A stretch of 64,000 nt of DNA, taken from positions 1 to 64,000 of the forward strand of contig JAFYHG010000008.1 in assembly GCA_017539265.1 (NCBI GenBank). The letters run 5' to 3'. Under the pieces are notes generated by a model. The model was not told where the DNA came from and searched no databases. It saw nothing but the letters and a program-made list of their open reading frames with translations. Shown one piece after another: positions 8,957-18,769 of this stretch (its first letter is position 1; each line of letters begins with the position of its first letter). The translations under genes were made by a program, and so were the position numbers. The DNA is from Alphaproteobacteria bacterium (lineage in GTDB: Bacteria > Pseudomonadota > Alphaproteobacteria > CAAHEQ01 > UBA3637).

Positions 8957-10804
8957 TTATTTTCGTTTCAGATATCCGATAACCGCCGTTACCGCCGCGG
9001 GGGTCATCCCCACCATTCGCATCATAGCCCCAATATTCGCCGGCCGTGTTTCATTTAGACGCTCCATAATTTCATTCGACAATCCCCCAATTTTCCGAAA
9101 ATCCGTATCAAAGGGAATTTTTAAGGCTTCATCTTTTCTAAACGAGTCAATATCCGATTGTTGCCGCGCCAAATATCCGCTATATCGCCCCTCAATTTCC
9201 AACTGCTCTGCCACATCGGGAGTAATCGTTCCAAATTCCGGAAAAGCCTTTACTATGGTTTCCCAATCCACATCCTGATATGCCAACAGGTCAAAGGGAC
9301 TGCGTTTCACACCATCCGCATTCACGACAAATCCCTTCTCACGTAATTCCTTGGATGTATATGTTTTGGCTTTAATTTGCGCGCGTGTCCATTCAAGGGC
9401 TTCTTTTTTGGCTTTAAATGCCTTTGCTCTTTCTGCCCCGACACAACCGATATCAATGCCTTTTTGTGTCAGGCGTAAATCCGCATTATCCGCACGCATC
9501 GTCAAGCGATATTCTGCCCGCGACGTAAATAAACGATAAGGTTCATCCACCCCAAAAGTCGTAATATCATCAATCATCACGCCGATATAACTGTCCGCCC
9601 GATCCAGAATAAATTCTTTTCCGGTTTTTCCGGCTTTTAAGGCCGCATTTATACCGGCCATCAAGCCCTGCCCCGCGGCTTCTTCATATCCCGTTGTACC
9701 GTTAATTTGCCCCGCCAAGAACAGTCCCGGCACTTTTTTCGTCTCCAAAGTCGGCTTTAACTCCCGTGGATCAACATAGTCATATTCAATCGCATACGCA
9801 TACCTTAAAATTTTCGCATGCTCTAGCCCCGGAATGGAATGGATAAAGGCCTCTTGCACATCTTTGGGGACACTTGTGGAAATACCGTTGGGATAGATAC
9901 TGTTTCCGGTTCGTGATTCGGGCTCTAAAAACACGTGATGGCTATCCCGCCCCGCAAACCGGATCAACTTTGTTTCAATACTCGGGCAATAGCGCGGCCC
10001 CGTGGACGTAATTTGCCCATCAAACAAAGGCGCCCGATCCAAATTATCCAAAATAATCTTATGCGTTTCGGGTGTCGTATGCGTAATATAGCACGGCATT
10101 TGATCCGGCTTAAAATCCTTTGTTAAAAATGAAAAAGCTTTGGGCGGATTATCCCCGTCCTGGCGCACACATTTCGACCAATCAATAGTATCTTTATCAA
10201 GCCTTGCGGGCGTTCCGGTCTTCAAACGCCCCATCTTCAGCCCCAGTTTTTTAAGGGCCGGTGTCAGGCTCAAACTCGGCTCTTCCCCCCACCGACCGCC
10301 GGCCGTTTGCTCTGCCCCGACGTGCAGGACTCCGTTTAAAAAAGTTCCCGTTGTTAAAATAACCGCCGCCGCATAAATCTGCCCGCCGCCGGCCACAACA
10401 CCCACAACCTGATTATCTTCAACAATTAGGTCATCCCCTGATGCTTCTATAATCGAAAGGTTCGGATAGGCAAGCAAAATTTCCTGCATTCTTTGGCGAT
10501 ACAGGGGCTTATCTGCCTGAGCCCGCGGTCCCTGGACCGCAGGACCTTTACTGGCGTTCAACATTCGAAATTGAATACCTGTTTCGTCAATCACACGCCC
10601 CATCAGGCCGTCCAATGCATCCACTTCACGCACCACCGTTCCCTTGGCCAGGCCCCCGATAGCGGGATTACAGGACATATCCGCAATGGTATTGATATGC
10701 AACGTCACCAGGGCCGTCTGGGCCCCCATACGCGCTGCGGCCGCCGCGGCCTCACAGCCCGCATGTCCTCCGCCCACAACAATGACATCATAATTTTGAA
10801 CCAT
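8957..10804 (-). CDS. mnmG: tRNA uridine 5-carboxymethylaminomethyl modification enzyme MnmG (GidA)
   Basis: A 615-aa FAD protein. With MnmE it forms the complex that makes 5-carboxymethylaminomethyl-uridine at the wobble position of tRNAs. The N-terminus carries the FAD dinucleotide-binding motif [12 protein letters not shown]. Further on are [17 protein letters not shown] and a Cys in R-Y-C-P-S-I-E, all MnmG hallmarks. The C-terminal helical MnmE-binding region ends GYLKRK. Length is normal. It has its own promoter at 10832-10860, and mnmE is two genes upstream on the same strand. Confidence 0.97.
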
Positions 10805-10831
10805 CTGGCTATCCTTTAAAATTAGCGCTTA

Positions 10832-10860
10832 TTATACACAATTTTCTCTAAAAAATCAAG
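10832..10860 (-). promoter_or_regulatory. Promoter of mnmG
   Basis: On the minus strand TTGATT (10860-10855) and TATAAT (10837-10832) are exactly 17 nt apart. They lie in the 58-nt gap between the histidine phosphatase stop and the mnmG start. Confidence 0.7.
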
Positions 10861-10862
10861 AA

Positions 10863-11402
10863 CTATTCCATCGGGATCAATGTCGTATTGGGGATCCATA
10901 AATCTCGATAGGTTGGTGCAAATAAATTATAATCAAACCCATCCGGATATTTTAAATAATAGGAAATAATCTTAAATAGTCCCGAATGTGTAATAATCAA
11001 TGTATCGGGTTCTTTCGGAGTATCCCGCATAAAGGCGGCCACACGTTCATATGCTTCTTTTAATCCCTCGGCTTTTAGTTTTCGGGGTTCTTCCCCCAAT
11101 GCCTGCCAAACCGCCGGTGTCAAGTTGCTTAAGGCTTGCCCCTCCAAATCACCCAAATCAAATTCGCATAGCCTCTCATCCGTTTCAATCGGCAATCCGA
11201 TATTTTGGTTTAGGATTTCCGCCGTTTGCTGTGCCCGTTTCAGGGGGGAAGAAATAATTCGGCTCCATTTCTTTTTCCCGATTTCCGTGGCGGCCGATTT
11301 AGCCTCAAAAATCCCCGTTTCATTTAAGGAAATATCGGTAATTCCCTGAATTTTTTTCTGCAAATTCCAATCTGTCTGTCCGTGCCGAATAAAGTAAAGC
11401 AT
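10863..11402 (-). CDS. Histidine phosphatase family protein (phosphoglycerate mutase-like)
   Basis: A 179-aa protein of the RHG histidine phosphatase superfamily. The catalytic phospho-His motif is at the N-terminus (FIRHGQTDWN). The second conserved His is in ITHSG near residue 140, and the SSPLKRAQQTAEI segment is typical. The substrate is not clear; relatives include CobC-like and broad-specificity phosphatases. The ATG starts 1 nt after the repaired mnmE stop codon, and its RBS lies inside the mnmE end, so the two are probably translated together. Confidence 0.85.
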   Translation of the reverse strand: MLYFIRHGQTDWNLQKKIQGITDISLNETGIFEAKSAATEIGKKKWSRIISSPLKRAQQTAEILNQNIGLPIETDERLCEFDLGDLEGQALSNLTPAVWQALGEEPRKLKAEGLKEAYERVAAFMRDTPKEPDTLIITHSGLFKIISYYLKYPDGFDYNLFAPTYRDLWIPNTTLIPME

Positions 11403-11403
11403 T

Positions 11404-12716
11404 TTATTTCCCGATACAAAAATCCCGAAAGATAACGTCCAATAAATCTTCGGCCTCTATTCGCCCCGTAATACGCCCCAGTGCCCGCGCGGCCAAGCGT
11501 AATCCTCGGCCTTTAACTCCAATTCCCGCACCCCCAGGGCATGATTTAAATTTCGCACACATTCCTTTAGGGCCACCCGATATCTCTCCCGCGTAATCAG
11601 GCCTTTTGTCCCTGCAAAATCGCGCTCTATAATAGCCTTAATATGCGCCCACAATTCCGAAATTCCCGCACCCGTCTTGGCGCTTACCGATAAATCCCCG
11701 CAGGCACCCGTTAAGTCGGCTTTATTCCAAACGGTTAACACAGTTTTGTTTTTTAATGCTTCCGGTAACTGATCCCCCTTGGGGGCTTTTTGACTATCCT
11801 GAATAAATAGGATTAAATCCGCCTCGGCCGCCTTTTTAACCGCCCGCTTAATTCCCTCGGATTCAATTTCTTCCACACTTTCCCTCAGGCCCGCCGTATC
11901 GGCCAAAATAACGGGAAAACCGTCCACATCCAAATGTGCTTCCACCACATCCCGCGTTGTGCCGGCCGTTTGAGATACAATTGCCACTTCCTTTTGCGTC
12001 AATGCGTTAATTAGACTGCTTTTCCCGACATTCGGCGCCCCGATTAAAGCAATTTGAAATCCTTCCCGCAATCTTTCACCGGCGCGATTATCGTCCAGAT
12101 GCGCCTGTATTTTTTGAATTAAGGCCCCGATATCCGTATCAATGCCCGCCAATCTTTCCGGCGGAATTTCTTCTTCGGGGAAGTCAATAAAGGCCTCCAG
12201 ATACGCCATATGATGTGTTAAATCCTGCCGCCATCCGTCATAAAGCCGGCCCAAATTTCCCTGCATTTGTAAAAGCGCTTGCCCGCGTTGGCGTTCCGTT
12301 TCCGCGTTAATCAGATCCAATAATCCTTCCGCTTCCGTCAGGTCCATTTTCCCGTTAATAACCGCACGCCTTGAAAATTCGCCTCGCTCGGCCGGCCGAC
12401 AACCGGCTTGACAGCCCAATACTTCTAGCACAGAAGCAATTACCGCGCGCCCGCCGTGGATTTGAAATTCGGCCACATCTTCGCCCGTAAAACTGTTCGG
12501 TGCCGGAAAATAGAGGACTAAAGCCTGATCCAACACTTCTTCCCCTCGATAAAGCGGCCTAAAATAGGCATATCTGGCTTTAGGATTTTCCAAATGCGCA
12601 ATGGCTTTTAATACATCTAAAACCCGATTTCCCGATACGCGAATAACGGCAACGCCCCCCTTCCCAAGGCCGCTGGATAAAGCATAAATCGTATCCGCCA
12701 AATTATACTCTTCCAT
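11404..12716 (-). CDS. mnmE: tRNA modification GTPase MnmE, frameshifted near the C-terminus
   Basis: MnmE is the GTPase partner of MnmG in wobble-uridine modification. Visible parts are the N-terminal tetrahydrofolate-binding domain and the G domain, with [29 protein letters not shown] and SAKTG. As written, the frame runs from 12716 into stop at 11457 (419 aa) and ends in unrelated sequence after LELKAED. One missing base in the T run near 11501-11503 explains this. In the next frame the sequence reads [14 protein letters not shown], then [15 protein letters not shown], the exact MnmE end with its essential Cys, stopping at 11404-11406. The repaired protein is 437 aa, the usual length. It is either a sequencing error or a very fresh mutation. 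Confidence 0.93.
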
Positions 12717-12719
12717 TTC

Positions 12720-13355
12720 TTAAATCCCTTTTAAAACCTTTACAAATTCAGCTCGCAACAAATCCAAGTTCATTTTTTTATCGGCACTTGTCACCAAAAC
12801 ATCGGGATAACAGGCCACATGCTTTGCCCCCAATGTTTGCACAATCTTTAACATTTTTTGTGCTTCAACGGGGGATACTTTATCCGCTTTTGTTAAGATA
12901 ATTTGATAACTGACCGCCGCTTTATCCAGCATTTTCATAATGTTTTCATCAACCGTTTTTATGCCGTGGCGAATATCAATCAATAAAAATACGCGCCGCA
13001 GTTGCTGCCGCCCCCGTAAATAATCATGGATTAAGCGTGTCCAAACCTGCACTTTATCTTCCGGCGCTTTGGCAAACCCATACCCCGGCAAATCCACAAT
13101 AAAAAAGCGCCCTTTTTGTTCAAAAAAATTCACTTCTTGCGTCCGCCCCGGCGTATTGGAAGCCCGCGCCAATTTCGGACACCCCGTCACCGCGTTAATC
13201 AGGCTGCTCTTCCCGACATTAGACCGCCCCGCGAAAGCAAATTCCGGCAACCGTTTTTGCGGTAATTGATCTGCATCCACAACACCCAAAACAAATTCGG
13301 GCTTTTCCGAAAACAGATTCTGTCCCTCTTCCAACAGTTGCTTACCCGCTTCCAT
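12720..13355 (-). CDS. engB: Ribosome biogenesis GTP-binding protein EngB (YihA/YsxC)
   Basis: A 211-aa GTPase of the EngB family, which helps late assembly of the large ribosomal subunit. It shows [16 protein letters not shown] (G1), TPGRTQEVNFF (G2), DLPGYGFAKA (G3, the family-specific form) and T-K-A-D-K (G4). It follows yidC directly (stop and start adjacent at 13355/13356) and precedes mnmE by 3 nt. This is the familiar rpmH-rnpA-yidD-yidC-engB order. Confidence 0.96.
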   Translation of the reverse strand: MEAGKQLLEEGQNLFSEKPEFVLGVVDADQLPQKRLPEFAFAGRSNVGKSSLINAVTGCPKLARASNTPGRTQEVNFFEQKGRFFIVDLPGYGFAKAPEDKVQVWTRLIHDYLRGRQQLRRVFLLIDIRHGIKTVDENIMKMLDKAAVSYQIILTKADKVSPVEAQKMLKIVQTLGAKHVACYPDVLVTSADKKMNLDLLRAEFVKVLKGI

Positions 13356-14999
13356 TTACGCCCCAACTTTTTTCATGATATATTTTTGTTGGGCGATGGA
13401 CAAAATATTACTCCATGTCCAGTAAATCACAAGACCCGATGCAAAATTCCCCAACATAAAGGTAAAAATAATCGGCATCATATTCATCATTAATTTTTGA
13501 TCTTTATTGGTCGCCGCCGACGGGCTCAAGCGTTGCTGAATTACCATGGTCAATCCCATAATCAATGGCCATACCCCAATATTTAGGAATGATGGTATCG
13601 GCCACGGCAAATACCCAAACGCCGTAAAAACAGACGACGGATCCGGTTGTGATAAATCGGTAATCCATCCAAAGAACGGAGCCTGCCGCATTAAAATAGA
13701 AACCGACAATACTTTATACAAGGCAAAAAACACCGGAATCTGTATCAACATCGGCAAACATCCCGACGCCGGCGTTACTTTTTCCCGTTTATACAAGTTC
13801 ATCATTTCAATCTGTAATTGCTGTTTATTATCCTTAAACCGTTCTTTAAGGGCTTCCATTTTCGGCTGCACTTTTTTCATCTTTGCCATACTTTCATATG
13901 ATTTCGTTGCAATCGGCAACATGGCCAGCCGTATCAAAGTTGCAAAAACCAAAATCACAATTCCCATATTTCCGATCAGGTTATACAGCCATCCCAAGAA
14001 ATACAAAAACGGCTTCGTCAGAAAATAATACCATCCGAAATCAATCGACAAATCAAAGCGTGGAATACCCTCTTCCTCATACGAATTGATTAACTTTAAT
14101 TCCTTGGCACCCGCAAATAGTTTTGTTGTTCGGGTTAAACTCGCCCCCGCGGCAATATCGGCATCTGTTTTAAAGGATGATTGATAAAATTCCCCATCGC
14201 GTTCAAACCGCATTTGTGAAACGGCACTTTGATCCGGCACAAAAATCGCTTGCCAATATTTATCCGTTTGCCCGATCCATCCGCCTTTATTTTCGATTAC
14301 AAAAGATTTTTCTGCCGTGATTTCCATATACCGGCTTTCTTTTTCTTTGCTATCAAACAAGCCTAAAAAGCCTTCATGCACGGTCGAACGACTATCGGGA
14401 ACGGTTTCCGTATTTCGGACAACACGTCCCACCAAACTCGCTTTCAGGGGCGCTGTCGACTTATTGATAACTTTATCTGTAAAAGTCATCAAATAGGCAT
14501 TATCCAATGAAATTGTCCGTTCAATTTTTGCTGCCTCATTTTCCCAAGTTAAAACAATCGGTGTTTCCGGCGAAAGAACGGTTCCGCTCACTTGCGGCGC
14601 CCGTGTTGTATCCGGTAAAGAGGCTCCTTCCCAATTCAAACTTGTATAAAAATCTTTCGTCAAGAGCGAAACCGCCGGACTATCCGCTTCCGTCGTTTCC
14701 CGATATTGTGTTAAATTAAGCGCACTAATTCTCGTTCCGTCCGATGTCAAAGCTCCCGATACAAAACTGTTTTCAATCGGCAATTGCACACCCACTGCCG
14801 GTTGAATAATCGCCTCTGTCTTTTCGGCTTCCGCCTGCACAGGCTCCGATACGGCCACTACTTCTTCCGTTGTCGTTAAAGGCACATTAACCGTTTCGGT
14901 TTTCTTCTCCATGAAAAAACGCGGCACCATAAATATCGCCAGTATTAGGACCAGCATAATCACCATATTTCTTTGGTTTTCTTTTTCTTCTTTAAGCAT
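13356..14999 (-). CDS. yidC: Membrane protein insertase YidC
   Basis: A 547-aa inner-membrane insertase and chaperone for Sec-dependent and independent proteins. It has one N-terminal membrane helix ([18 protein letters not shown]), a large periplasmic beta domain (about residues 60-330) and a C-terminal five-helix core. The core includes [11 protein letters not shown] with the groove Arg, the cytoplasmic hairpin [14 protein letters not shown], and [19 protein letters not shown] start at 14999 rather than the longer frame at 15038 because AAGGA lies 9 nt upstream and the protein then begins [10 protein letters not shown]. The start overlaps the end of yidD by 8 nt. Confidence 0.95.
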
Positions 15000-15231
15000 T
15001 CTTTTTTTCCTTTCTTTTCGGCGGCGGTACAGGATCATACCCTGATCCGCCCCATGGATGACATCTTAAGATTCGTTTGGCTGTCAACATAGCACCTTTT
15101 ACCGTTCCATGCAACAAAAAAGCTTCACGCGCATAGGCCGAACATGTCGGATAGAACCGACAGCACGGTTTTTTCATCGGTGATAAACAGATTTGATAGA
15201 CGCGCACAAAGAACCGACAAATATGCCTCAT
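14992..15231 (-). CDS. yidD: Membrane protein insertion efficiency factor YidD
   Basis: A 79-aa YidD protein, which is thought to help YidC-mediated insertion at the inner membrane. It carries the family signature: [20 protein letters not shown], then YAREAF and [13 protein letters not shown], with all three conserved Cys of the CCRFxPTCS motif. It overlaps rnpA by an ATGA junction (15228-15231) and yidC by 8 nt, so the three are translationally coupled. Confidence 0.96.
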
Positions 15232-15584
15232 TTCTCCCGTCCTTCCGCGTAATGACGTTTGATTTCATTTAGGGCAAAAATCAGGTCCGTTTTTAATTTA
15301 TCATAGGGCCTGTCCTTGGTGGATAACCTGCCGATAAGGACCAAATCAAAGCCTGCCATTTCATCCATTTTCGGGCAAGTTCTCACCAATTCCCTCAATC
15401 TCCGGCGCGTGCGATTACGCACAACGGCACACCCTATTTTTTTTGTTACGGTAAATCCGGTTCGAACACTATCCGTTCCATTTGGCAGAGCTTGCACAAT
15501 AATGCTTCCCGAAACAATTTTAAAACCGTTTTCGGCTACATTTAGAAACATTTTGCGCTTTTTCATTCGAACTTGTCGAACCAT
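15228..15584 (-). CDS. rnpA: Ribonuclease P protein component
   Basis: The 118-aa basic protein subunit of RNase P, which matures tRNA 5' ends. The signature [15 protein letters not shown] is at about residues 64-78, after [11 protein letters not shown] start at 15584 rather than at 15611 because GGAAAGGAAT stands just before this ATG. The gap to rpmH holds a hairpin followed by six T on this strand, so rnpA probably depends on partial readthrough of it. Confidence 0.93.
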
Positions 15585-15600
15585 TTTATTCCTTTCCAAC

Positions 15601-15628
15601 AAAAAAGACACCGAAAGTAGACGGTGTC
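15601..15628 (-). terminator. Intrinsic terminator or attenuator between rpmH and rnpA
   Basis: On the minus strand GACACCG (15628-15622) and CGGTGTC (15613-15607) form a 7-bp stem with an 8-nt loop. Six T follow (15606-15601). The rnpA RBS begins within 10 nt, so this is likely a partial terminator that lowers rnpA relative to rpmH. Confidence 0.75.
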
Positions 15629-15657
15629 CGTTTGTTCATTATCATGCATTCGCAAAA

Positions 15658-15792
15658 TTAAGCGCTGACAACCTTGCGTCCTTTACGCCGGCGCGCATTA
15701 ATTACCAAGCGACCGCCTTGGGTAGCCATACGGGCACGAAAACCATGGCGCCGTGTACGAACGATTTTACTGGGTTGATAGGTGCGTTTCAT
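15658..15792 (-). CDS. rpmH: 50S ribosomal protein L34
   Basis: A 44-aa protein starting [20 protein letters not shown] and ending GRKVVSA. It has the standard L34 features R-R-H-G-F-R-A-R-M and R-R-R-K-G-R. L34 is a small component of the large ribosomal subunit. It is first in the run rpmH-rnpA-yidD-yidC-engB-mnmE, with GGAGAAATACG before the ATG and a strong promoter at 15829-15857. No dnaA lies upstream, unlike in many bacteria. Confidence 0.97.
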
Positions 15793-15828
15793 CGTATTTC
15801 TCCTTTATTACAAAAATCAGTATGAGTG

Positions 15829-15857
15829 CTTATACACTATTTTTTTTCAAAAGTCAA
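15829..15857 (-). promoter_or_regulatory. Promoter of rpmH
   Basis: On the minus strand TTGACT (15857-15852) and TATAAG (15834-15829) are 17 nt apart, about 37 nt upstream of the L34 start. Confidence 0.7.
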
Positions 15858-15891
15858 GCAAAAAGCATATCAAAATCATATTTTCTGATTT

Positions 15892-16107
15892 TTAGCAACA
15901 ATAAGGTTCACCCGTCGTAGCATTTGTGCAACTTTTGGTCTTTGGGCTGCATTGTTTGGCCGCCTGTGCTGAATTCCACGACAAACCATTACCGGCTTTC
16001 ACCTGCTTACCTTTGGGTGAAACAGACGTATTAATCCGCCCCGACAATAACGAGAAAAACAACGAAAAAAACAAAAATACAAAAAATCTTTTAATCTTTC
16101 TGGCCAT
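15892..16107 (-). CDS. Small secreted Cys-containing protein, unknown
   Basis: A 71-aa protein. Residues 1 to about 22 are a basic start followed by a hydrophobic run (FFVFLFFSLFFSLLSG), a signal peptide or membrane anchor. The rest is short and carries four Cys, including the final C-C (KQCSPKTKSC, EPYCC). AAGGAGATTTTAAA precedes the ATG, so it is surely translated. It lies about 70 nt downstream of the prepilin-like Cys-rich gene on the same strand and may belong with it. I know no family for it. Confidence 0.7.
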   Translation of the reverse strand: MARKIKRFFVFLFFSLFFSLLSGRINTSVSPKGKQVKAGNGLSWNSAQAAKQCSPKTKSCTNATTGEPYCC

Positions 16108-16176
16108 TTTAAAATCTCCTTATCTTAAAGACAAAATCAAACAAATGATAAATACTTTTTTGAATTACAGCTGCCA

Positions 16177-17844
16177 TTACACATTCCCCCCACTGCTTCT
16201 GCTTGATGAAGAACTGCTGCTCGAGGAACTACTCGAAGAAATCGACCGACTATTGTTTGATCTGCTGTTCGAAACACTACTGCTGCGAGAAATACTGCTA
16301 TTTCGGGAAGTGCTACTACTACGAGAAACACTGCTGTTTTGGGAACTGCTTCTACTTTGTGAAGCATTACTGCTCGACTTTGATGGGTCTGCATCATCAT
16401 CATCTTCGCAACCGCACTCACAATCTTCTGGGCAACAATTATCATCATTCGGGCAACATCCGTCTTCCATTTCTTCCGGGCAACACCCCGGCGGTTCAGG
16501 CTTACATGAGCCGTCCTCACAGCACCCGTTCGGACATTCTGCAACACAACAATCTTTACTGTCGATACATGTTCCCGAGCAACATTTTTTCTTATATACT
16601 TGTTGTTCTGTCTCCGAATATGTTACAATCGTTATATCTTCGTCACAAGGAATAGAAACTCTATTCCTCTTACCTTCTTCCGTACAGTGAACGGCTGTGT
16701 CTCCATCACAATAAGCGTGCCCGCCATAAGGCGATGGTTTTAATGACTCCCGCACTTTGCATAATCCATCCACACATTCCATACATTCCGCGTCGGCATC
16801 TTCAAAAAAGCCCAAAACACCACCGACGCAATCGGCCGCAGTCTCACAACTTCTTTTCTTACATTCATCTCCATCTTGCAGGGGCTTATCCGGCGGACAT
16901 TCACAATTACAATTCGTATGGTTTAAAGTTTGCTCCGGCCCGCAACTTCGCAAACATTTACATTCCGCATTAATACATTCTTGTTGGTATTGTAGACAAC
17001 TAGCATCAACACGTGTAGATTTACGTTCACCCTCCCCAACGCAATGAACTACATTATTACCCAAACAAAATTTCTCCCCGCCTTCATGCCCTTTACAATC
17101 GTCCCAGGGTACAGTAACCGTTCCATCCGGATTTTGTATGATTTGATGGTTTTCAATATCTCCACATGGGGCACCCCATGGCGGACAGACACTACCATCC
17201 GGATTGACTACTGTTTCTATGGTTACCGTGTGCCCCTCCGCAGCGCAAGCACTCTTTATCAATAAATCATTCCAAGACGAATCTATTTTTCCACTTACAA
17301 CTTCTTTATCATCTACATATATTTTCGCGGGAAAAGGTAATTTTATTTTTAACAATTCATTTAAAAGGTCATCAGAAACATCATAAAGTGTATATGAATA
17401 GTACTCCTTCGTTTCCCCTTCATATGTATATATATCACTTATTTCCACACCATATTTGCTCAAAACGCTTCTGTCACATTCGGAAGTATTTGCCTCTAAT
17501 CCCATTAATGTTTGGCCCGAGACAATAGTTGAACAAACATTCATTTCATGAACCAACTGATTGACTTCATGTTTTGTTAAAGCTCTTTGATAACCCCATA
17601 GGGCCCCTATCGTCAACACACCGATTACCGCAAGAACCCCTAATATTTCAACCATACCGCGACCGGATTGAATAGTACGGTCATTCTGAGGGTATAAAAT
17701 GTCTGAAGAATCTGTTGAATGTATTCCAAAAGATCTTTCACTACATTCAGGGTGATCGCTTAATTTTGTCCTTTTTCCAAATTTCAACAATCCCAAACCC
17801 CGAACAATTCGGTCCTTAATTCCTTCTATAATTCCTTGTTTCAT
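16177..17844 (-). CDS. Prepilin-like protein with Cys-rich body and poly-Ser tail
   Basis: A 555-aa protein. Residues 61-95 look like a type IV (pseudo)pilin N-terminus: S-G then R-G-M-V-E, with Glu at +5 after the predicted peptidase cut, followed by the hydrophobic helix ILGVLAVIGVLTIGALWGY. The leader before the cut is about 61 residues, far longer than usual, and includes a possible inserted repeat (17677-17757). Residues about 95-210 resemble a pilin globular part. Residues about 215-470 are very rich in Cys (C-C and C-x-C pairs, EGF- or knottin-like spacing). The last about 80 residues are nearly all Ser with Arg and Asn. ATAAGGGGAACC precedes the ATG. It probably crosses the inner membrane and is exposed outside. 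Its role is unknown. Confidence 0.75.
   Translation of the reverse strand: MKQGIIEGIKDRIVRGLGLLKFGKRTKLSDHPECSERSFGIHSTDSSDILYPQNDRTIQSGRGMVEILGVLAVIGVLTIGALWGYQRALTKHEVNQLVHEMNVCSTIVSGQTLMGLEANTSECDRSVLSKYGVEISDIYTYEGETKEYYSYTLYDVSDDLLNELLKIKLPFPAKIYVDDKEVVSGKIDSSWNDLLIKSACAAEGHTVTIETVVNPDGSVCPPWGAPCGDIENHQIIQNPDGTVTVPWDDCKGHEGGEKFCLGNNVVHCVGEGERKSTRVDASCLQYQQECINAECKCLRSCGPEQTLNHTNCNCECPPDKPLQDGDECKKRSCETAADCVGGVLGFFEDADAECMECVDGLCKVRESLKPSPYGGHAYCDGDTAVHCTEEGKRNRVSIPCDEDITIVTYSETEQQVYKKKCCSGTCIDSKDCCVAECPNGCCEDGSCKPEPPGCCPEEMEDGCCPNDDNCCPEDCECGCEDDDDADPSKSSSNASQSRSSSQNSSVSRSSSTSRNSSISRSSSVSNSRSNNSRSISSSSSSSSSSSSSRSSGGNV
17677..17757 (-). repeat. Possible in-frame copy of a dispersed palindromic repeat
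   Basis: The leader of the prepilin-like protein contains H-P-E-C-S-E-R-S-F followed by S-S-D-I-L-Y-P-Q-N-D-R. This is the kind of peptide encoded by short dispersed repeats in many proteobacteria (CHPERSEGS...QNDR form). A related string, PSETKKF...PQNDK, is encoded in non-genic DNA at 32048-32124. The nucleotide ends include CATTCTGAGG and CATTCAGGGTGA. Confidence 0.45.
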
Positions 17845-17941: not shown

Positions 17942-18769
17942 TCAATTTATATTGATTTCATACATCATATCGGCCGGATCATCGGCTGACTTCGGTTTTT
18001 TGCGCCACAACTTAAACCGCGCATAGGCCGGATAACCGGTAATTTGAAAATCCGTTTCTGCCTGATGGGGCGATCCGTTATTGCATCCGCCGGGGTATCC
18101 GCAACTGCCACCGACATGGATAAAATCCCGAAACCGATACGGTTCCGTTTTCATATTTTTTCCACTTAAGAAATGTATATTTTTGCTTGCCACCACATAT
18201 GCATACGGTACTCCAAAATCAATAGCGTTACGCCCGTTAAAAGAATACTCCATTTTGGGTTTCCAAGTGTGATTTTTATGAGCTATTGCAGCCAATACTC
18301 GTTCATGTGTCGACGCATCATAGTTTACCGTAAAGGTCTTAGTATCCGTATTAAAAGTAATTTTTGTCGGTTTCGGATAGGACAGTGGGCAATTCCCTTT
18401 TCCTTTCATTAGGGGGAGGGCAAATCCCTCTTCCATACTCACTAACAAGAACGGATTATCGATAAATCGGCTTTCATCGGACTCACCCTCAATCGACAAT
18501 TTCCCCGGCCCATAGCACATCAAGCCTTTTAATCCCCACCAAGGTTTTTTGTTTTCAATCTGCCGAAAGACGGGGCCGGTACCAGCCTTATAATCCCCTT
18601 TAAAAAAGACGGGATATTTTTTAATCATCTCGTTACGCACCCGAAAAATCTCGTCTTTGTTCAAAAAATCGTATTCACGCGGCGGATTAACTGGAAACGA
18701 GTAGATTTTAGCCGCTGCCCCAAAACTAATACCACAACAAGCCAAAAACAAAATCCATTTTTTAATCAT
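17942..18769 (-). CDS. Secreted protein of unknown function, coupled to atpF
   Basis: A 275-aa protein with a clear signal peptide (KKWILFLACCGISFGAAA). The mature part is rich in aromatic and basic residues and has a Cys-Gly cluster, GGSCGYPGGCNNG, near residue 230. I do not recognise a domain. Its ATG overlaps the atpF stop by one base, and AAAGGAG lies inside the atpF end, so it is the last gene of the F0 operon. A link to ATP synthase function is not implied by its sequence. Confidence 0.75.
   Translation of the reverse strand: MIKKWILFLACCGISFGAAAKIYSFPVNPPREYDFLNKDEIFRVRNEMIKKYPVFFKGDYKAGTGPVFRQIENKKPWWGLKGLMCYGPGKLSIEGESDESRFIDNPFLLVSMEEGFALPLMKGKGNCPLSYPKPTKITFNTDTKTFTVNYDASTHERVLAAIAHKNHTWKPKMEYSFNGRNAIDFGVPYAYVVASKNIHFLSGKNMKTEPYRFRDFIHVGGSCGYPGGCNNGSPHQAETDFQITGYPAYARFKLWRKKPKSADDPADMMYEININ

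Follow-up and report, generated by a model that had tools for sequence, protein, structure and literature searches.

We describe a 555-codon open reading frame whose product is probably a modular minor pilin of type IVb, or a tip adhesin, working with a small secreted partner protein. The frame lies in the window, by which we mean the whole stretch of 64,000 nucleotides that was analyzed, taken from an alphaproteobacterial genome of 1.47 Mb that is 98.6% complete. The frame is preceded by a ribosome-binding-like GGGGAA upstream of its ATG, and its product consists of five parts: a leader, an N-terminal helix, a globular pilin module, a Cys-rich body and a Ser-rich tail (Table 1). At the predicted cleavage junction the leader end QSG is followed by RGMVEILGVLAVIGVLTIG, beginning RGMVE, which makes this a class III leader: position −1 is Gly and position +5 is Glu. 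Of its 44 cysteines, 40 fall within residues 216–480. The protein had no match in Pfam or NCBIfam. The frame is nevertheless not a product of chance, because a paralog on contig C27 shares its leader, its pilin module and its C-terminal Cys motif, and 14 or more further proteins of the same genome contain the pilin module. The cleavage site with Glu at +5, the helix and the body with dense Cys pairs, all described in the initial annotation, are real. That annotation put the tail at about 80 residues, and it is indeed mostly Ser but shorter (68 residues); likewise, the three-part layout it proposed named true parts but missed the globular pilin module. An antisense frame (15926–16690, plus strand), whose Leu/Glu-rich part lies opposite the Ser tail, was rejected as an artefact. 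Just upstream of the prepilin gene (17942–18769, minus strand) is a frame for a 275-aa protein with a signal-like N-terminus, which had no Pfam or NCBIfam match.

Table 1. Location of the prepilin gene and its parts, of the small downstream gene, and of the diversity-generating retroelement (DGR) repeats in two congeneric relatives.
Feature	Position	Strand	Size, composition or basis
Prepilin ORF	16177–17844	−	555 aa
Leader peptide, MKQGIIEGIKDRIVRG...QSG	17662–17844	−	Residues 1–61; basic and long; predicted cut G61/R62
N-terminal pilin helix	17506–17661	−	Residues 62–113; Glu66 = +5; AlphaFold2 helix, model residues 2–53
Putative type IVb pilin module, globular part	17257–17505	−	Residues 114 to about 196; profile, model, fold comparison
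Cys-rich body	16405–17199	−	Residues 216–480; 40 Cys, six CC pairs; composition
Ser-rich C-terminal tail	16180–16383	−	Residues 488–555; 42 Ser of 68; composition
Small Cys-rich partner	15892–16107	−	71 aa; 69 bases downstream of the prepilin ORF
DGR repeats, two same-genus relatives	L207: 2043–2150, 4153–4260; L206: 1839–1947, 3568–3676		Template-to-variable changes at template adenines, 9/10 and 11/11

To assign the head to a pilin family, we built a profile from 30 related heads and searched it against the sequences of the PDB, which ranked TcpA first (E 7e-5) and placed CofA sixth (E 0.0094). The AlphaFold2 model of the window head (pLDDT 82.7) also aligned best with these two pilins: VIA gave Z 9.0 for TcpA (rmsd 3.1, 129 residues) and Z 8.8 for CofA (rmsd 3.3, 134 residues), values near 9 being modest for a long-helix model, and type IVa pilins reached only Z 3–4, below the type IVb pilins. 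Foldseek on the window pilin model gave no significant hit. Profile and predicted fold thus support the assignment of the head to the type IVb pilins. Among the 30 aligned heads, G1, R2, E6 and V10 are invariant. As to the C-terminal disulfide conserved in type IVb pilin heads, the VC...C pair common to most relatives is not present in the window head, which has Cys104, Cys123 and Cys200 instead. The +1 position, usually occupied in known pilins by a hydrophobic residue or Met, is Arg in this prepilin. The N-terminal domain of the PilV shufflon was absent from the Pfam matches of 78 members of the head family, three of which match PilS.

A machine of a kind that could handle such a pilin is encoded in the same genome. 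We identified one A24 prepilin peptidase (E 8.6e-14), with the motifs DSKYCLLPD and GSGDVK, in which PF01478 was found and the A24 N-domain PF06750 was absent. Moreover, one contig (C17) carries a run of genes for TcpQ (8.4e-18), a PilN secretin (TIGR02520, 312.7 bits against a curated cut-off of 287.65), PilO (3.9e-25), a PilQ-type ATPase (T2SSE, 3.9e-69) and a PilR-type platform protein (T2SSF, 4.9e-22). Judged by these sequence matches, the predicted machine is type IVb and R64/TCP-like. With no other T2SSF gene found, we saw no further complete assembly system; the remaining ATPases, one PilT-like and one VirB11-like, lie away from the operon. A second pair of assembly ATPase and T2SSF genes, which would have pointed to a type II secretion system, was not seen. 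Of the 43 genomes examined from the order, 39 have PilN, as do 26 of the 27 good ones. The initial annotation had proposed a surface fibre or tip protein and a search for a prepilin peptidase and a pilus ATPase; not only are both encoded, but so are the secretin and the platform protein. A lack of pilus genes therefore does not count against the proposal, because the A24 peptidase and the type IVb operon are there, and with the type IVb head they support it. In the mechanism we favor, the leader would be removed by the A24 peptidase, and the pilin module would enter the filament through the PilQ/PilR-type machine and leave through the PilN-type secretin. The protein would then be displayed at the surface. 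Since so bulky a body, rich in disulfides, is unlikely to fit within the fibre, the protein would sit at or near the tip of the pilus, where this body would act as an adhesin-like binding module. In modelling of another modular pilin, only the tip could likewise accommodate its bulky module (PMC8179133).

The separate 71-aa Cys protein, which the initial annotation had placed downstream on the same strand, proved to have six paralogs in the genome; of the seven copies in all, contigs C1, C27, C29, C3 and C9 carry one each and C18 carries two. All seven genes are directly downstream of a prepilin-headed gene and on its strand, at distances of no more than about 70 bases, a placement that chance does not give. 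The proteins share a basic and hydrophobic N-terminus like MARKIKRFFVFLFFS, followed by a variable C-terminal region containing between one and five Cys, and in most of them an A-x-A-like stretch immediately precedes the Cys end. Comparison of head and partner identities over the seven pairs gave no correlation (r 0.07, p 0.38). The other genomes of the order yielded no convincing homolog of the partner, the one weak match being a frame with stops, and the few loci checked in other genera had no partner-like small gene downstream of the heads. By analogy, the small protein is most likely exported separately and pairs with the window pilin, much as the secreted TcpF and CofJ do with the minor pilins TcpB and CofB; these proteins of V. 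cholerae and ETEC leave the cell bound to the minor pilin via an N-terminal signal (PMC9565799). The same precedent, the 7/7 linkage and the A-x-A-like stretch, which fits release of a short peptide, also accommodate a possible but less likely reading in which the pilin is mainly a carrier and the released Cys peptide is the working product. Against this reading, eight or more of the genome's prepilin-headed genes are without a partner, the partners were not found in the rest of the order apart from the weak match described, and the aromatic secretion signal of type IVb pili was not recognised. The prepilin/partner pair adjoins rpmH (15658–15792, minus strand), within positions 8957–16107 of the window, and beyond it are frames that resemble, from a reading of their translations, rnpA, yidD, yidC and mnmE/mnmG, an example of orphan pilin genes lying among housekeeping genes.

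The tip-adhesin reading gains from the size of the family to which the head belongs. The pilin-module profile had 18 matches in the genome, which has at least 15 prepilin-headed genes, and the head profile matched in all 43 genomes of the order examined (one family, 13 genera, genome sizes of 0.7–1.8 Mb), with 6 to 103 matches per genome. These copy numbers are lower bounds, because repeated heads probably break assemblies. In one genome of the order (G004, L151–L163) several heads of about 90% DNA identity lie at contig ends. Of 385 genomes drawn evenly from the class, 33 had a head match, five of them from the family of the window, and outside that family the matches were mostly few and short among the matches listed. 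One 1.5-Mb genome of the same class, from another family outside the order (G384), gave 64 head candidates at first look and possibly represents a second expansion of the pilin head. Contigs with these heads also occur in MAGs titled Akkermansia and Gastranaerophilales (L086, L119, L130), probably through binning contamination. Nearly all of the named relatives are MAGs of uncultured Alphaproteobacteria, several from rumen, rectum and cecum samples. The prepilin-headed genes are orphans, and many have Cys-rich, EGF-like or C-type-lectin-like bodies that are mostly unmatched in Pfam.

We surveyed the bodies in a sample of 78 complete, long family members. Cys makes up at least 5% of the body in 75 of them (median 9.55%), and 28 end in a lectin-like W-x-[SA]-A...C motif. 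By profile, the lectin-like C-terminal domain retrieved from the PDB only proteins of the C-type-lectin fold (best E 0.0046), and its model (pLDDT 91.1) had C-type-lectin-like domains among its best Foldseek matches. Some members (alignment A2) matched EGF families of animal type (EGF_TEN, 1.4e-45; EGF_Teneurin, 1.7e-38). Nine members of the same alignment matched the model of the outer membrane exchange protein TraA. Packing the largest bodies, which reach about 950 aa, into a filament would be difficult, as expected if the head served membrane insertion only and the protein were an anchored surface protein that is never polymerised. We regard this as improbable: the window protein keeps the full helix and Glu+5, the Glu is invariant in the 30 aligned relatives, the machinery is conserved alongside the heads, and pilins with grafted modules fit the tip position (PMC8179133). 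The body of the window protein itself has no Pfam match, and neither a lectin nor an EGF match was found for it. Its relative is on C27 of the same genome only (61% identity over the last ~56 residues), in a paralog that also shares the leader start MKQGIIEGIKDRIVRG, and so the binding role is proposed by analogy. A whole-protein scan of genome contigs, whose scope possibly left out this genome, found no relative. With 53 acidic and 22 basic residues besides its 40 Cys in 265 aa, and with no lectin or EGF match, the body might instead serve metal binding or redox chemistry and not adhesion, an idea to which we give little credence since the similar Cys-rich bodies of relatives match EGF families or end in lectin-like domains.

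The Ser tail is a more local feature. Taking 18 or more Ser in 40 residues as strongly Ser-rich, we found such segments between modules in three other proteins of the genome: one is encoded on C9 and two on C18, of which one comes from a split gene. The proteins sampled from other genomes had no such segment; the terminal tail is therefore a local trait. More generally, paralogs on C18, C9, C21, C12 and C3 carry Ser-rich segments as linkers between modules. The initial annotation had viewed the tail as a possible stalk, which suits those linkers but is a poor fit here, because the tail forms the very end of the protein and nothing follows it. Most likely it is unstructured, lies at the surface and may be glycosylated. 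At the DNA level the tail is no microsatellite or simple repeat, as all six Ser codons are used (AGT 14, AGC 11, TCA 5, TCG 5, TCT 4, TCC 3). This codon usage, the open 555-codon frame, the retained partner gene and the Ser-rich segments of several paralogs make it least probable of all that the gene is a decaying paralog with a functionless low-complexity tail, a notion prompted by the lack of a counterpart of the tail in the other genera sampled and by the split family member on C18. The latter (L188: 1598–2950), a prepilin-headed gene divided into frames of 101 and 325 aa, may be a pseudogene, a phase-variable gene or an assembly error.

We also considered DGRs as a source of diversity. In the genome of the window this was rejected, as no RVT_1 match was obtained at E 1e-6; without a reverse transcriptase (RT), a DGR does not explain its own set of genes. 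Relatives in the same genus have RTs with the IGNLTSQ signature. In two of them (G014 and G016) the template repeat beside the RT differs from the variable repeat at 10 and 11 sites, of which 9 and 11 are at template adenines; the genes targeted encode small secreted proteins that are C-type-lectin-like. A third genome (G015; L164–L176, L203) has twelve closely similar lectin-like genes with prepilin heads, one of them beside a split RT-like gene. Near the C-terminus these genes vary at codon positions 1, 2 and 3 in 12, 12 and 5 of 15 codons, whereas their heads show the opposite pattern (4, 1 and 26 of 40). No template repeat was found near these genes. A survey of DGRs mentions putative pilins linked to DUF1566 targets.

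Finally, we compared the window protein with known systems. Like TcpA of Vibrio cholerae and CofA of ETEC CFA/III, it has a long leader, Gly−1, Glu+5 and a long N-terminal helix; those two pilins, each of about 200 aa, build the filament as its major subunits, whereas the window protein has Arg at +1 and adds a 265-aa Cys body and a Ser tail. TcpB/CofB with TcpF/CofJ resemble it in combining a pilin head and a large extra part with a secreted-protein gene in the cluster (PMC9565799), but they end in an H-type lectin-like fold, while here the extra part is a Cys-rich body and the partner has only 71 aa. PilV, a minor pilin of the R64/TP114 thin pili, shares the variable C-terminal part, which acts as an adhesin, and a PilN/PilO/PilQ/PilR-type machine (PMC9045228); it varies by shufflon inversion within one gene, in contrast to the many separate orphan genes with different bodies seen here. 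PilB of Streptococcus sanguinis likewise carries a grafted module unrelated to pilus assembly (PMC8179133), but PilB-like pilins have vWA or ConA-like modules, and here Cys-rich or C-type-lectin-like bodies occur in tens of copies per genome. The initial remark that no standard pilin has this layout thus holds for the exact layout but not for the principle, since grafted-module pilins are known and Cys-rich bodies are the norm in the long members of the family. Modular type IVb pilins being known, the most interesting aspects here are the unusual expansion and the partner family. A literature search on pili of gut Alphaproteobacteria found, among the papers covered, none combining these subjects, and the prepilin-head family is likely annotated as hypothetical because it has almost no Pfam or NCBIfam coverage.

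The prepilin-headed genes with small Cys partners suggest a repertoire of interchangeable binding tips. Extending this to the whole order is more tentative, and we put it forward as a conjecture: one conserved type IVb machine may serve a large library of orphan tip pilins with differing Cys-rich, EGF-like or C-type-lectin-like modules, some species apparently hypermutating them by DGR, and in the species of the window seven of these pilins, each with its own small secreted Cys-rich protein, may form interchangeable tip complexes. The conserved partner gene offers a direct way to test the assembly of such complexes. If the conjecture is true, these small-genome gut Alphaproteobacteria spend a striking share of their genes on alternative pilus tips whose disulfide and lectin modules resemble those of eukaryotes, and a tip library of this kind would explain binding to many host, food and microbial surfaces.
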